Below, one piece after another: positions 55,450 to 64,000 of a stretch of 64,000 nt of DNA. The notes below the pieces were generated by a model. The model made no database searches. It worked only from the letters and a program-made list of their open reading frames with translations, and had not been told where the DNA came from. The position numbers and the translations under genes are program-made. Every line of letters begins with the position of its first letter. Within the stretch, counting starts at the first letter, position 1. The stretch covers positions 3,723,042 through 3,787,041 of the forward strand of contig JAPNXP010000010.1 in assembly GCA_028753945.1 (NCBI GenBank), written 5' to 3'. The DNA is from Hexactinellida sp. DTS-2022. Taxonomy: Eukaryota; Porifera; Hexactinellida.

Positions 55450-57800
55450 CCCATGTTATTATTTTTGTTGATCGGATGCCATCATACTTGTACCAGGTCC
55501 CATTCAATTCCACGATCAATTAAAAGTGATCTTTTATGCTAATTTGCTGATTTGTAACAGATATTTTTCTTACGATGAGGTATGAATATCGACTAATCTA
55601 TTTTGTTTGCTGTTAGCTGTCGACTATGCCTGGAAGGTGACCAATTTCAAATGTGAGAATCGGTGGAACTGTTTAAAATACCCTTCAAGCTATCGAGATT
55701 TGAGTTTGTTGAGTTGCATGCTTTGCACTTGATGGGTTGCATCCGGGCTTTGAATCGTCAGTTGATTGTTAACTAATTATGGAACAAATGCTTCCGAGTT
55801 GAATAGAAGTTGTAAATATCTTATCACAGCTGGAACATTTAATAGTTTCCATTTAAATTTCGTTAGTGAGATCAATTTTTCTCCTTAATTAGGGGGTAGC
55901 TTCTAATCCAAAAAAATAAAAACAATTGAGGTTACAGTTGATACTAGTTTCTTTGGCAATTGATCATGTAATTGAGCGAATTCTTGACGATTAACAAAAA
56001 AGATAAAATTCGATAGACGTTCGTTTGTGTGTCCTCCCAGGTATATTGCTGTTTTTATATTATCATGATGTAGACTCAACAATGCAAGTATATTATCAAC
56101 TGAACATGTAGTTATTTGGTAATAGCTATATCGGTATATCGGGAATATATGGATATGAGTTCAGTTTTTTTTCTTCATGGGAATCTATATCAATTGTAGG
56201 GACAAGCGATTCTTCTATGATTTGAAGCAGAACCGGTAAAGAAAATTTAAAGGGTAATTCCTTTCTCTCTCTTTGTCGAGCAACATTCCAGTTTATTCTA
56301 AATACTCACTGCAAATATCTGTTGTGAAAATCGCGACCTCTTCTTTCAGCCAGAATGGGAGAGAAGTGTCTAGAAAATTTACAAACAGGTCTCGAAAGCG
56401 CATATGTTTCGATTTCTCGTCAAGAATTTTGTCTAAGTCAGATGGGAACTTATTGCTTGATAATGCATCAGGTACTTGATCTTTCAGAGAGTTTAGGAGT
56501 TACTTGTACCTTCTCCCATCTTTGGTAGCATAAATATCTTCAAATATTTCTTCAGTTGCCCCTAAATGTAGTAGATTTCCTGTTGCATCTCATCTATTAA
56601 TAACATATAATAACCTTCACATTTTATGAGTTAACAACAAGGCGTTTACCAATTGAACTTACATTGATCTTCAGTTGCAACTTGCAATCAATCCTTCATC
56701 CTCTTGTTGCACAACCTAACAAAACCAAGTTACCATGTCAATTACCCTTACTTCATGAATAGTTTTTATCCAAGTTTACCTTTGAATGCTTTGAATTTTC
56801 TAATCCAGGTGCTTGCTTCTTTTCCTTGAGGAGATTGTACTGGTTATGGATATTTGAAGGTGCATTTCAATTGGACTTCGTTGTTCAATTGAAAACTGTT
56901 GTTACATATATAGTAAAAAGATATTATTATTTTTTAGTCAAATGAAACGGGATATTTTTTTGATTCTTTCTTTCTGTTTCAACGTCTAGATTCCCTTTAG
57001 TTGTTCGCCTAATTTGGTAATGTCCGAGAAATTTAGCTTGTGACTTAGCATCAAGTAGTTTCTAAACCTTATAAACATTTCGTACTAGTATGAAATTCGA
57101 AAGATCGATTTCAGATCTAAGTAAGGAATTATTTCAAAAAAGTATTATATCACTTAGTAAGAAAGATATATGATTTATCCGTTATTCTGAACTTTTGCAT
57201 CGTAGATATTCTTTTGTCTTTTTGTTCAAATTAGGATATTAGAACGTGCCGCCGCTCTTTCTGCTATCCTATTTGATTCAAGTTCCTTCCATTTTTCATC
57301 ATTGGATCAATAGGTGGATCAAATACACTACTGGATTGTTCCGAATTCATTAGCAGATCTTCTGCATCACTCTCTTCAGTTGTTTTACTATATTGAAAAA
57401 TATTTACAGGGTACAACTTACAATCCCGACCAAACATTAGCCTAAATGGTGTTGACTGAATAGCAGTTTTGAAATACGTGTTGGCTGCCAGGCATGTAAG
57501 GGGTAGTTTCTCTGGCCATTCTGAATCTGATTGCGCTCGAAATTTATCATGTTTCCTAAAATTAATTTAATTATTTAATTTACTGCACATGGTAATTTTA
57601 AATTGAAACAAATGAACAAGTAGTATATGTATTAGAGTTTAAATTTATCTGACTTTATTTAGTTAGGTTGAACTTATGTTTTCAGGATTTTGTTCTGAGA
57701 TTCAATAAGGCCATTACTCTGAGGATGGTATGGTGGTTGCTCGATTATCTGTCTTGAGTTCTTGATGAAATTGCTTAAATTCCTGAAGATTTTATGTTTC
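55450..57800 (-). pseudogene. Decayed Ginger-like gene: integrase plus cysteine peptidase
   Basis: Minus-strand pieces in order are: the integrase core end (QPPYHPQSNGLIESQNKILK, about 57755-57675); the post-core segment (WPEKLPLTCLAANTYFKTAI, STPFRLMFGRD, about 57530-57420); a linker with LGATEEIFED near 56560; KEEVAIFTTDICSEYLE; and LPFKFSLPVLLQIIEESL. The peptidase follows: TCSVDNILALLSL with Cys at 56104-56106, CSSCDKIFTTSIQLGSI, KCKAC, LEGYFKQFHRF, and KDHF then NGTWYKYDGI with His at 55526-55528 and Asp at 55481-55483. Stops and frameshifts are scattered throughout. Introns probably separate the early pieces. Every peptidase block aligns with the intact gene at 62172-64000. Confidence 0.8.
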
Positions 57801-57984: not shown

Positions 57985-59194
57985 TGTTATCCTTCTGTAT
58001 TGGAAAGGAAAATGTCAAATTATTCCTGAAAGTAATCCATGAGTCCACGATTAAAAGCTCTAACTCTCCAAAATGATCAACGTTGCAGTGAGTTGAAAAC
58101 AAACACATCTAGATTCGTCAAAATTCTACTCACGTTATGGAACATGTTTAATGTAAATGTTCCATATAAGTATATTCGTTTAAATGATTCTTCATGTCGC
58201 CCTTTCACAGTTAATGACGAACGCTTTATCTTTTTAACCAGGATAGTAAATTGGCTAGAGACTTTGGAATCACACTCTTTGAAAGATGGCAAATTGAGCA
58301 AGCAAACTTTACAAGCTTAAGACACGCGTGCATTGTATTCCCTCAAATAGTTAATTATCTAACTGGACAGTGTGGATATGCTTACATTTTAACACGTTTC
58401 TTACAGACAGATCCACTAGAGCACCATTTCGGACTTTATCGGATGATGCCTGGATCAAATTACCATGTTTCGTACCTTCAAATTTTAGAAGCTGAACGTC
58501 GTTTGAAGATCTCCAATCTATTAACTCTATTTTCTAATACCAACACTCAACCATCCAGCCAGATTTCTATGGAGGAATTTATTCTTTCTTTCTCTCCCAT
58601 TTATAGCGTACATACAGATACAGAAATTGACATTGATCCTTTTCTTGATGCTTTATCAGATGTATCAGCCATTGAGTGCGATACCCCAACACTCCAGTCA
58701 CTAGCTTTTATTGCTGGGTATGCTGCCTACCAATACCTTAAGCATTCTTCACCGTGCTTAATATGCCGAGATCTTTTAATTATCGACAAAGATATTCTAG
58801 TAGATGAATCCTTCGAATTCCGGTACCAACTACTGCAGCTTTCTGGTCGGGTGGTCTAAAGTATCCTTCAGAGCTTGCATTGGAATCTTTAATTATTGTA
58901 TGGAAGATTCTAACTATAATCCAAAGTAATAGTGAACTTATGTCCCTGTTGATAGAAGGTCAAACTAGAAAGATTTTAGTAACACTTGCTTTTGGCTCCC
59001 TAACTGGTCTTGATAGTGGTTTTGAAGGTTGGAGAACTACTTGTCCTTCTTGTAATGTGAAAGGTTCAACCATTCTATCAAGTCTCGTTCGGAGTGAAGC
59101 AAATTGTCTAATTGCAAATCTTGTCAAGAATTACAATTCGAGCCTTACTTTAAAGGGATTAGAAAAGCGGAAATTGAAAAAGTTCGATTCCTGA
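57985..59194 (+). pseudogene. P-element/THAP9-like transposase, C-terminal part
   Basis: Blocks in order are TSRFVKILLTLWNMFNV, DERFIFLTRIVNWLETLE, GKLSKQTLQA (shift near 58316), RHACIVFPQIVNYLTGQCG, FLQTDPLEHHFGLYRMMPGS, LEAERRLKISNLL, LAFIAGYAAYQYLKH, CLICRDLLI and, after a shift, GGLKYPSELALESLIIVW. The tail LKGLEKRKLKKFDS ends at TGA 59194. This is the same region preserved at 40908-42005, and it is longer and less broken here. The N-terminal half and THAP finger are missing; the THAP fragment at 30850 is the only finger seen. Confidence 0.88.
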
Positions 59195-60003: not shown

Positions 60004-60129
60004 CGTATATGTAGTCCTTAGCGTTGTAAAATGTTTTTGTGGTGTAACAGTTGCAACTTGCAATTATAACTTTTAGATTTAGAATATATAACTGTGTTGT
60101 AACTGTCATATTATTCGAGACCTGTTGCA

Positions 60130-60313
60130 TAGGATTCTGACCCGCGTAGGATTCTGACCCGCAATACAAAATTGTAATAGCAAATCCATGGTGCGGGTCA
60201 AAATCCTACGGTAGTCAAGAGCGTAGGATTCTGACCCGCAATACAAAATTATAATAGCGAATCCATGGTGCGGGTCAAATCCTACGATAGTCATCCGTAG
60301 GATTTTGACCCGC
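60130..60313. repeat. Duplicated inverted-repeat unit (GTAGGATTCTGACCCGC)
   Basis: The unit GTAGGATTCTGACCCGC, then about 35 bp with AATCCATGG, then GCGGGTCAAAATCCTAC occurs twice in tandem, with an extra half unit on each side. Each unit can fold on itself. Confidence 0.85.
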
Positions 60314-60960
60314 ATTGATTATATTATATCAATTATGATTGTATTATCGAGCCTATCTCGGTTTTCACAATAACATTATTGCATACTAGCTATGATTATT
60401 GAATTGCTATAGACGTAGCTTATTTTACGATATTTTTAGCTTGTCTAACTTGGATAATTTGTAAACTACTGAAGTCGATAATTATCCAACTTGTTTATGT
60501 GAACCAATGTTACTAAGATATTTCTAATTTTAGATCCATCCACTCTCTTTGTACGGAATACCTTTAGCAAAAGTAGTGATTCTATTCGCATTGTTAATCA
60601 GATTCAAATTAAGTTTAATTAATAAATAATAATACAAAATTCATTGACAAAGAAAATAGTAATAAATACATTACTTTATTAAGAATAAAGAAAATATAAG
60701 TTGGAGTAATAATTATTAAACTGTGTTGAATAGGATGTAAAAGTAGAAGCTTGTCCCTTAGGTTTCTGTAACCACAATCTATATTCATACGTACATCCAA
60801 CTTTCTAATTGAGCAATTAATGAATTTGTGAGGTATATCTTCTACACTATTTACCAATAACTCCATGTGAAAGACATATATTCTAGAAAGAAAACAAGTA
60901 ATGTGTGGCCTCCTCCTCCCCTACAGCCACAATCCAATCCTCTCCATTTATAATTTTATA
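60314..60960. other. No gene seen
   Basis: AT-rich sequence with no motif; the minus-strand open frame at 60615-60866 has no recognisable domain. Confidence 0.35.
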
Positions 60961-60962
60961 TA

Positions 60963-61148
60963 CAGTAGAACTCGGTTAGTTCGTACCTGGTTTAGTACGT
61001 ACTTCGGCTTAATACGCCTAACTTGTATGAACAAAGTTGTCAATTTATATGTATCTCTATGTAGTGTCAAATCTGTTCGTACGTACACTCCGATAATACG
61101 TACTAATTTCTCTTCTCCGAGGGGGTACGTACTATCCGAGTTCTACTG
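60963..61148. mobile_element. 186-bp TA-flanked MITE
   Basis: Ends CAGTAGAACTCGGTTAGT and ACTATCCGAGTTCTACTG are inverted repeats, TA on both sides. The interior has GTACGTAC and TTAATACG words typical of Tc1/mariner or pogo-type MITEs. Confidence 0.92.
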
Positions 61149-61162
61149 TATTATAAGAAAGT

Positions 61163-61716
61163 ACTACTATACTAACAGACCGCACTGCTATATTAACAGA
61201 CCGCACTAGTACATTAACAGACCGCACTGCTATATTAACAGACCGCACTAGTACATTAACAGACCGCACTGCTATATTAACAGACCGCACTGCTATACTA
61301 ACAGACCGCACTGCTATATTAACAGACCGCACTGCTATATTAACAGACCGCACTGCTATATTAACAGACCGCACTAGTACATTAACAGACCGCACTGCTA
61401 TATTAACAGACCGCACTAGTACATTACAGACTGTACTACTATATTAACAGACCGCACTGCTATATTAACAGACCGCACTGCTATATTAACAGACCGCACT
61501 GCTATATTAACAGACCGCACTAGTACATTAACAGACCGCACTGCTATATTAACAGACCGCACTAGTACATTACAGACTGTACTACTATATTAACAGACCG
61601 CACTGCTATATTAACAGACCGCACTAGTACATTACAGACTGTACTACTATATTAACAGACCGCACTGCTATATTAACAGACCGCACTGCTATTCTAACAG
61701 ACCGCACTGTTATACT
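61163..61716. repeat. 21-bp minisatellite
   Basis: About 26 units of CTGCTATATTAACAGACCGC-A, with a second variant containing CTAGTACATTAACAG and a third with ACAGACTGTACTACTATATT. Variants are interspersed in a higher-order pattern. It starts 15 bp after the preceding MITE. Confidence 0.97.
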
Positions 61717-62171
61717 AATAATTAGAACCTGTAAATAACGGCTACCCTAGGGACTGTTCAAAAATGGCCATTATGACAGATGACAGCTATATACAGAATA
61801 ATAATAATATGGGAAGTCATGTGGGGACCTATTCTAAGTGGCCGTTATACTAGACAGTTATAGAATATACTTTAATGTTATAGTCAATAAATTAGTCTAG
61901 AAACTCACTTACTTCTGGTTCCAATTTGTGTTTCGTCCCGGCCCGGACTCGTCAGTTGCGTTGCCTGTCACGCAATACACTTGGGTTGGTTGAGTGTTGG
62001 AAGTGTTACGCTGTCAGTCGCCACTGGGGACATGCCGTTGCAGGTCGCGTTACCATTATCTGGGCTCACCATGATAGGGATTGCGTAGCCTGACTAGCCT
62101 CTAGCAGAGGTCCCCACAAGGTCGATGTACCTTGCCTTTGAGCGCTTTCGACTGAATAATAAGAAGAAGAA
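61717..62171. other. Downstream region of the Ginger-like gene
   Basis: The 61900-62150 part is GC-richer than the surroundings and ends in AATAATAAGAAGAAGAA, which could be the tail of a short retroposon. GTGGGGACCT at 61824 and AGGTCCCCAC at 62106 are inverted. No Ginger terminal repeat could be proved here. Confidence 0.3.
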
Positions 62172-64000
62172 TTAGTCAGAAGAGTGCAAGAGGTAGAATA
62201 TAGTATTGAGTGATCCGATGAATTGGTTACAGTCCCATAGTTCGACAGTCGGGTTTCTCATGCCGTCATATTTATAAAATTGTCCGTTGTCACATAGGAT
62301 AGAGTAAAAGTGGTTGCTAACGAAGATGGAAAAGCCAGCTAGTTTATAATGTAATGTCTGTTGTTGATGACTGATGGTAAATTGTTGGTCGATGTCAGAT
62401 ATTAATACTTGTTTGCTTTGTGTTATAATGTGTCCAATTTCAATTGTTAGCAGTATAGGAATGGATTGAAAATGCCCAGATAACCTCTCACAGATTGCAT
62501 CACTTGATCCACAGGACTTACATTTAGTTGGAATTAGTTTTCGGTTTATAGAAGACTCCAGATTAGTGAATACGCTGCCAATATTTCCTATCATATTGGT
62601 GGTGTTAAAGATGTTGGTGCAGTGGTGGCATTTGAAGTTGGTAATGTATCTGTCGTTGCATAGGTCTTCTGCTCTTAGGAATTGAATGATGTTGCCTTCT
62701 GATCCAAAAAAATTGTATGATTGCATCAAACCAGTTGAATCATATTGAATATCCAGCCCGAGTTGTTTGGCGATATAATCTCGCAGTTCTTCGAATTTAT
62801 TAGTAGCAGCCAGTTTGAACAGATGGTAGAATTTGGTGTCAGTTGGTGAGGTTCCGATTAAGTTCAGTGCATCGAGTATGTTTGCTTTCTTAGAACTTAG
62901 GATGGCTAGGATGTTGTCCACTGAGCAGGTATTGGATTGCATGATGTCATTGTGCTCTCCCCCCCAAATAGGATATGCTATTGGTAGTGATGCAATCTGT
63001 GAGATGGTATTCAGATGGTTAGATGGTGATGGATTGGTATCGATGGTAATTATCTCTTCTAGTTGATGCTTAGGTGATATTAACTGAATCACAACAGGTA
63101 ACAGAACTGCGAGTGGATAATCATAGTCTTTTCTGATTTGTATTGGATCGTTACAGGGATGGCTATTGCGATATTCGTTGTACCAATTAGCGGTAGCGAT
63201 GGCGATCGATTCTTTGGTCGTAAAATCTAGTTCAGTCGATGGATGGTAATCGTATAGTGATTTTAGTGATGTTAGTGATTCAGCTTTGGTGGCGAGCGTT
63301 TTATGTAGTGGGGTTAGATAGGTACGGTTGTTAAGGGCTGTTAATACTTGAGGTTTTATGGTTGTTAGTGTAGCATCAATACTTTCTTCTGTTCCTCGTT
63401 GTTCAGGGATTTCATAGATTTCTTCAGTTGCTCCTAAAGTCAGGGTCTCCTCAAATGGTTCTAAATGAAATCAAATAAAGTGTGTTTAAAATTTTAGGAT
63501 TGAACTAGTTCGAATAGTATGTAGAAATATCATGACTAGTGTTGTTAATCAAATCAAATATTTCAAATATTTGATTTGATTTGAGATAATTTTGAGTGGC
63601 TAATTATTTGATTTGATTTGATTTGATTTGAAATGATTTGAAATCTAAAATGATTTATTTACAACGCTGCCAGTGTCTGATTCATAACCGTGCTTGGTAA
63701 TAACGTATTTTTAATAATAGCAGTAAACAATTGAAAATACTTACCAATTGCATGCGAAATAGAAAATCCGGTTGATGTGATGTCGGGTGTTTGATTCTTC
63801 GTTGGTGTAACCTAAATTGTAATAGGAATGAGTCATTAGTAAGAGGGTAAACAATCAACTAAAGTTAACTTACCGGTTGTTTGCGAGGGAAATATTTTCG
63901 AGAGAGATGGAGAGGTAATTTTGTTACTTTTGTGCTGTTGGGATCTTTTCGTGCTACGAGGTGGCTTGGTGTTACTTTCTCTACTGAATATGGGCCTAAG
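62172..64000 (-). CDS. Ginger-like integrase C-terminus plus USP-like cysteine peptidase (5' end outside window)
   Basis: Three minus-strand exons fit GT-AG rules: 64000-63874, 63811-63745 and 63460-62172. Phases agree (0, then 1), and the joined frame is open to TAA at 62172. Exon 1 holds LGPYSVEKVTPSHLVARKD, a GPY/F motif as in Gypsy and Ginger integrases. The last exon has a linker (LGATEEIYEIPEQ) and then a peptidase domain. Its blocks are NTCSVDNILAILSSKKANI (Cys codon 62925-62927), KCHHCTNIF and KCKSCGSSDAIC (zinc ribbon), LSGHFQSIPILLTIEIGHI, SNHFYSILCDNGQFYKYDGM (His codon 62310-62312, Asp codon 62265-62267). Family logic suggests a DDE transposase with a ubiquitin-peptidase-like partner domain. 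It is not OTU or Ulp1 by motif. Activity is inferred, not shown. Confidence 0.78.
63537..63674. mobile_element. Possible hAT-like MITE in the second intron
   Basis: AGTGTTGTTAATCAAATC and GATTTATTTACAACGCTG are imperfect inverted ends around a TTTGATTTGA tandem run. No clear target duplication is visible. It lies inside the intron between 63744 and 63461, which leaves the reading frame untouched. Confidence 0.5.

Follow-up and report, generated by a model that had tools for sequence, protein, structure and literature searches.

A Ginger1-like DNA transposon from a probable glass sponge with a transposase joined to a putative USP-like cysteine peptidase

Transposons are known that carry OTU, Ulp1 or VTD domains and, in one case, a C19 peptidase. 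Elements of the Ginger1 group carry C-terminal OTU or Ulp1 domains (Bao, Kapitonov and Jurka 2010, PMC2836005), in agreement with a preliminary description of the DNA analyzed here, and a role together with repair factors is suggested for these domains in that report. The same source gives Trichomonas vaginalis protein XP_001314237.1 as a combination of transposase_11 with Peptidase C19 (PMC2836005). Deubiquitinase activity is reported for a VTD domain encoded by a Helitron, and the authors of that work suggested that domains of this type keep proteins required for transposition from being degraded; an aromatic gatekeeper is given there as a feature of most deubiquitinase families (PMC9741609). 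No description of a USP-type domain in Ginger elements was found among the papers listed in searches of the open-access literature, and the papers on the genomes of O. minuta and A. vastus do not use the word Ginger in their main text.

We analyzed a 64,000-nucleotide stretch of DNA (hereafter, the window), which corresponds to C2:3723042-3787041 of a 112-Mb genome of 18 contigs. At its right edge, this DNA contains part of what is best read as an autonomous DNA transposon with one long gene, the product of which combines a Gypsy-type integrase, acting as the transposase, with a diverged C-terminal cysteine peptidase of the ubiquitin-specific protease type (USP, C19). On the same best reading, the union of a Gypsy-integrase-type transposase with a USP-like domain is a new addition beside the carriers of OTU, Ulp1 and VTD. 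The features of the element are listed in Table 1.

Table 1. Features of the transposon and its gene (window coordinates unless a contig is named; the window ends at 64000)
Feature	Position	Strand	Remarks
Whole element, 6365 bp	60123-66487 (in the window, 60123-64000)	minus	copy homology stops at the TIRs
4-bp TSD flanking the 3' TIR, GGTC as read on the minus strand	60119-60122		partner C2:3789529-3789532, past the window edge
3' TIR, ~40 bp	60123-60162	minus	TGTTGCATAGGATTCTGACCCGC and a second 17-bp unit
Subterminal repeat array	60144-60314		77-bp unit; contains the 17-bp motif of the TIR in direct and inverted orientation
Exon 8	62172-63460	minus	linker of ~165 aa followed by the USP-like peptidase domain; coordinates include the stop codon
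Putative USP-like cysteine peptidase domain	62175-62966	minus	
Asp of YKYDG	codon 62265-62267	minus	
His of NHFYSIL	codon 62310-62312	minus	
Second CxxC	codons 62520-62522 / 62511-62513	minus	
First CxxC	codons 62628-62630 / 62619-62621	minus	
Proposed catalytic Cys (NTCSVDN)	codon 62925-62927	minus	
Exon 7, 67 nt	63745-63811	minus	AG before, GT after; identical in 4 other copies
Exon 6, GPY/F motif (LGPYSVEKV...)	63874-64087 (in the window, 63874-64000)	minus	
Exons 1-5	64363-66301		past the window edge; locus L031

Five near-full copies delimit the element. The homology among them is bounded by inverted ends of the form TGTTGC...GCAACA, and a perfect 4-bp TSD flanks each of the five (GGTC, GTGC, GGCC, GCAC and GCAC). 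The longest blocks that align with the window copy span 5.1-5.3 kb, at 97.9-99.2% identity. Four of the five copies encode an intact 906-aa protein, which in the other three is 99.8-99.9% identical to that of the window; in the C18 copy, exon 1 is disrupted and the left end is shorter by one 17-bp unit. The 23-base terminus has at least 59 matches in the genome (two mismatches or fewer), compared with none for the reversed control pattern. These features suggest a DNA transposon with recent activity, and it probably moves by cut-and-paste. The reading as an LTR element was set aside in view of the TIRs and TSDs of the copies. The subterminal repeat array possibly provides binding sites for the transposase. 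Two more repeats are present inside the element, namely, a 21-bp tandem array of 26.6 copies (61163-61718), which is the source of many overlapping matches between copies, and a pair of 28-bp inverted repeats about 190 bp across (60960-61151) that resembles a small nested element; self-inverted matches are found at the place equivalent to the latter in all five copies.

The transposase gene, assembled from the window and the fetched neighbour locus, consists of 8 exons separated by 7 GT-AG introns and encodes a protein of 906 aa. The gene model was guided, exon by exon, by a tblastn search with the Oopsacas integrase protein P0019, which aligns in order over the exons of the window gene, the DDE region included. 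The H2C2 domain, the DDE core and the GPY/F motif are all present: the GPY motif was recognized by eye in the window, Pfam H2C2 and rve were scored on P0019, and the assignment of these two domains to the window protein follows from its exon-by-exon alignment to this Pfam-scanned relative. The preliminary description, made from the letters of the window, placed the last exon, its motifs and the GPY/F exon at the positions where we find them, and the two introns that it proposed are both of the GT-AG type; five more introns lie past the window edge. It further advised a leftward extension on the minus strand to recover the DDE core and the terminal repeats, and named the absence of an integrase core upstream as the result that would count against a fusion. 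The extension recovered the TIRs and located the DDE core upstream in the same gene, and in relatives of this gene the integrase core and the peptidase domain share one ORF. Between the stop codon of the gene and the 3' end of the element (60123-62171), no ORF longer than 112 aa was found.

The element resembles Ginger1, as described in PMC2836005, in its Gypsy-type integrase with H2C2, DDE and GPY/F, in the presence of a C-terminal ubiquitin-pathway peptidase, and in having introns, which some Ginger1 elements also have. The TIRs of Ginger1 are 40-270 bp long and those of the window's family about 40 bp; the TSD is 4 bp in length, in all five copies as well as in 9 of 11 distant loci; and the terminus of the window's family, TGTTG, fits the Ginger1 consensus TGTNR. 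In contrast, the distant families end in TGTTT or TGCTA, which do not fit TGTNR, and the TSDs reported for Ginger1, CCGG or CCGT/ACGG, occur neither in the window's family nor in the distant ones. Ginger1 carries OTU or Ulp1, whereas the domain here is USP-like; Ginger1 genes have at most 4 introns and encode about 500-800 aa, whereas the present gene has 7 introns and encodes 906 aa; and the host of the present element is a probable glass sponge (Ginger1 data from PMC2836005). In view of its unlike TSD sequences and C-terminal domain, we denote the element Ginger1-like rather than a member of the Ginger1 group. Ginger2 was set aside because it is described as lacking GPY/F (PMC2836005).

The fusion recurs beyond the window's family. 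In 11 of 13 further loci of the same genome (L041-L048 and L051-L053), a single ORF without interruption, 792-972 aa long, encodes both the integrase core and the peptidase domain; thus, the fusion does not depend on the predicted splicing. The exceptions are L049, where the ORF begins past the DDE core, and L050, where integrase and peptidase are found in separate ORFs. A Pfam scan of seven one-ORF proteins detected rve in all seven and, in five, Integrase_H2C2 too; P0032, with a late ORF start, has rve only, and the rve match of P0029 falls under the curated cut-off. In protein searches, which favour near relatives with shared 5-residue words, every relative that carries a species name comes from the glass sponge Oopsacas minuta, namely, P0013 and P0019 (2 of 24 and 2 of 49 matches) and P0037 (1 of 5); on this basis, the host is probably a glass sponge. 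P0019 spans the two integrase domains together with the beginning of the peptidase. TSDs of 4 bp were found in 9 of 11 loci of the distant families (CCCC, ATGG, TCCA, GAGC, TATA, GGAC, CTAT, CAAT and ACGT), where the inverted end matches are 56-234 bp long. At L051 and L045, no TSD was found; L049 and L050 show no inverted match at the ends and were left out of this count.

At least 107 matches to the peptidase domain were identified in the genome, fragments included, with 97 of 317 candidates scored. An alignment of 14 diverse rows has 24 invariant columns, which include NTC, DN, both CxxC pairs, HF and D; given this invariance and the number of genome matches, the domain is not a product of chance. 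Cys, His and Asp are kept in the triad order in all 14 rows, in line with a probable catalytic role, and C124, C127, C160 and C163 are likewise invariant, forming two CxxC pairs between the Cys and the His. Two such pairs in this position, which make up a zinc ribbon, are a feature of USPs. The oxyanion-hole Asn of USPs is located five residues before the Cys; no Asn was found at this place in the alignments of the domain.

The assignment of the domain to a peptidase family proved difficult. No Pfam match above the cut-off was obtained, the Pfam UCH models do not recognize the domain, and searches of Pfam, NCBIfam and PDB sequences returned no peptidase family at a useful E-value. Weak likenesses to Pfam zinc ribbons appear in 7-8 of 24 members (best E-values, 0.0035 and 0.008), and a PDB profile search gave two matches only, to unrelated proteins (E-values of 0.33 and 1). 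Profile-profile comparison was more informative. With a profile of seven long USP sequences, aligned from at least 61 Pfam UCH matches in the same genome, hhalign matched the first peptidase profile at a probability of 65.8% (E 5.7e-5), a version with 15 trimmed rows at 63.9% (E 6.6e-5), and a 28-row version at 82.7% (E 9.5e-6); the 28-row profile is restricted to rows with NTCxxDN and at least 225 aa from the motif, so that motif conservation in it is by selection. Compared with a score of 40.8, column shuffling, done 150 times for each profile, gives maxima of 26.7 (USP shuffled) and 24.2 (peptidase shuffled), and reversed profiles score 18.4 and 12.5; the score of the 28-row profile is 46.5 compared with a maximum of 29.8 in 200 shuffles. 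No match was obtained in hhalign to OTU, Ulp1 and C12 profiles of the same genome, which score 9.5, 13.4 and 16.8, respectively, against the 28-row profile, although these controls are weakened by the small size of the profiles (6, 3 and 2 rows). The hhalign probability for OTU and Ulp1 is 0.1-0.2%, in keeping with the initial observation that the domain fits neither motif set. C98/USPL1 had no match in the genome at E 0.1 and hence yielded no control profile. Across viral contigs, one or the other of two peptide patterns occurs in 30 stretches, no one of which was confirmed.

At default settings, the hhalign alignment extends over 129 columns, from the first CxxC to the Asp, leaving the Cys box outside, and pairs both CxxC pairs with those of USPs, IPPLL with LPxVL, HF with HY, and YDG with DD. 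At the permissive setting -mact 0.05, NTC is also placed on GNTC, and a C-terminal Tyr on a Tyr. The segments taken singly carry less signal: for the Cys part, 2 of 60 shuffles score as high and the best match lies elsewhere than the Cys box; the zinc part scores 16.3, barely above the 15.9 of shuffles; and for the His/Asp part, 1 of 60 shuffles scores as high. HMMER cross-searches of the peptidase profile and the USPs, in both directions, gave nothing above shuffled decoys, so the USP affinity is a result of profile-profile comparison. Thus, the USP-like identity proposed in the preliminary description is supported by profile-profile comparison and was missed by every sequence-to-profile search; the Pfam check that it advised found no family, and hhalign favours USP over OTU and Ulp1.

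The domain shares with the USP/C19 family (Pfam UCH, PF00443) the order Cys, CxxC, CxxC, His, Asp and the profile match to the seven USPs of the genome. It differs from this family in the Cys box, NTCxxDN compared with GNTCxMNS in several sponge USPs, in the lack of a Pfam UCH match and of the Asn five positions before the Cys, and in the fusion to a transposase. We considered whether the domain could instead be a papain-like deubiquitinase of another family, with UCH (C12) the nearest, or represent a family of its own. UCHL5 is the best PDB match for the C-terminal 96 aa, but at E 0.06 this match is not significant. The spacing between His and Asp is 15 in all 15 profile rows (10 by script, 5 by eye), which is compatible with a non-USP origin, as are the missing oxyanion Asn and the failure of the Cys box, taken alone, to support USP. 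On the other side, the two CxxC pairs between Cys and His align with those of USPs, and the C12 profile, made of two sponge sequences, scores 16.4 and is outscored by 19 of 21 two-row USP profiles, if barely by some of them. On this balance, we regard an origin outside the USPs as improbable. From the sequence comparisons, it appears probable that the transposase is Ginger1-like and that the peptidase domain joined to it is an active one of the USP type; our confidence in this identity is tempered by the Cys box, which enters the alignment with USPs at the permissive setting only. Read on its own, the His/Asp box (62265-62312) resembles UCHL5, whereas the profile of the whole domain favours USP.

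The VTD domain of Helitrons is similarly a ubiquitin-pathway peptidase encoded by a transposon. Membership in VTD was rejected by motif order: VTD is described with an Asp-x-His motif, whereas the Asp here follows the His by 15 residues, and Helitrons are rolling-circle elements (PMC9741609). The T. vaginalis protein XP_001314237.1 is also described as joining a transposase to a C19-type peptidase, unlike the present one with a transposase of another class, in a protist, and with a peptidase recognized by domain search (PMC2836005).

In 58 database relatives, counted over readable rows, the predicted catalytic residues are retained as follows: Cys, 52 of 57; His, 27 of 30; Asp, just 21 of 28. 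For the cysteines of the two CxxC pairs, the counts are 33 of 39, 34 of 38, 36 of 39 and 36 of 38. The aromatic gatekeeper of deubiquitinases sits after the His, and the residue at this place is a Phe in 29 of 30 readable rows. Between families, nonsynonymous divergence of the peptidase is much lower than synonymous divergence: in six diverged pairs, pN is 0.20-0.33 compared with pS of 0.69-0.80, and omega is 0.11-0.12 in the two of these pairs for which it was computable, with dS near saturation. Close pairs give peptidase omega values of 0.14-0.31 from few changes, and L041 and L042 have zero synonymous changes in the peptidase and hence yield no ratio. Alignment A1 was made without P0019, and alignment A3 without P0012, P0021, P0023, P0024 and P0025. 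The changes of triad residues in some of the database relatives would fit a catalytically dead module that binds ubiquitin or a partner protein, but the 14 diverse rows all retain the triad and both CxxC pairs, and many of the database rows are fragments or decayed copies, which makes loss of activity quite unlikely.

Across the same six diverged pairs, identity is 62-74% in the integrase, 51-66% in the peptidase and 36-57% in the 200 residues that precede the peptidase. The position of the domain behind a fast-evolving linker would also suit a processing protease for the transposase precursor, comparable to the protease domains of viral and LTR polyproteins, without any action on ubiquitin, but the profile match is to deubiquitinases and the Phe after the His is conserved, so we give this explanation hardly any weight.

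Under the preferred reading, an active USP-type peptidase, the domain would cut ubiquitin or a ubiquitin-like protein by means of the Cys-His-Asp triad and would act within the transposase complex. Ubiquitin might be taken off the transposase itself or, in the second option, off proteins of chromatin and repair, be it at the donor or at the target site. Cis-deubiquitination that would spare the transposase from degradation, the function suggested in the preliminary description, is rated the likeliest step, though by itself less likely than not; a role in chromatin or repair is rated slightly lower, and the remaining probability falls to other roles of the domain. If so read, one more transposon-borne domain, USP-like, missed by domain searches and present in intact, near-identical copies, would imply that deubiquitination rather than one particular fold is selected. 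The element would offer a way to switch off this activity by changing a single residue, the effect of which on transposition could be measured.

The integrases associated with the domain fall into three lineages. The first is the window's family and the second consists of the one-ORF families; the third, which has another integrase and additional Cys-rich stretches, is represented by L047 and L053 (972 aa; ORFs L047:1107-4022 and L053:836-3751), which have the same C-terminal domain. Pairwise identity between the integrase cores of the three lineages is 22-30%, compared with 20-30% to six control integrases of the genome; the controls were drawn from at least 150 rve matches in the genome, and P0019 was the one sequence compared from beyond it. 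In a second alignment, the cores are 25-34% identical between lineages, and the peptidase parts 29-34%. In the integrase tree, the lineages with the domain are not joined, although a single origin is not rejected by the AU test (p 0.117, 9 rows; p 0.374 without the long-branched P0029). It is conceivable that a glass-sponge deubiquitinase module of USP ancestry moved among DNA transposons whose integrases belong to three or more deeply diverged lineages; because a single origin of the integrases is not rejected, we treat such transfer as a possibility, one that we consider short of probable. Were it to hold, ubiquitin-cutting activity would have been repeatedly selected in integrase-type transposition, whatever deubiquitinase fold supplies it.

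Several other features were observed in the course of this analysis. In the lineage of L047 and L053, the best NCBIfam likeness is to IS481, as it is for P0026; the TSDs are GAGC and TATA, and the two extra Cys-rich stretches resemble, by eye, PHD and CXC fingers. Near the element, a remnant of another integrase (YHPQSNGLIESQNKILKT) is located on the minus strand at 57468-57730, and two plus-strand ORFs at 58218-59194 have no Pfam match and, by eye, recall what we take to be the C-terminal part of P-element-type transposases. OTU domains have at least 150 matches in this genome. Two OTU domains lie near the C-terminus of ORFs of 845 and 1077 aa, at L070 (C6:1161600-1164900) and L071 (C13:4677200-4681400), respectively, which are transposon-like and of a type other than that of the window element. 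Finally, nine near full-length USP (UCH) matches are clustered within 45 kb at C1:15023836-15068355, in an arrangement that resembles a tandem expansion.
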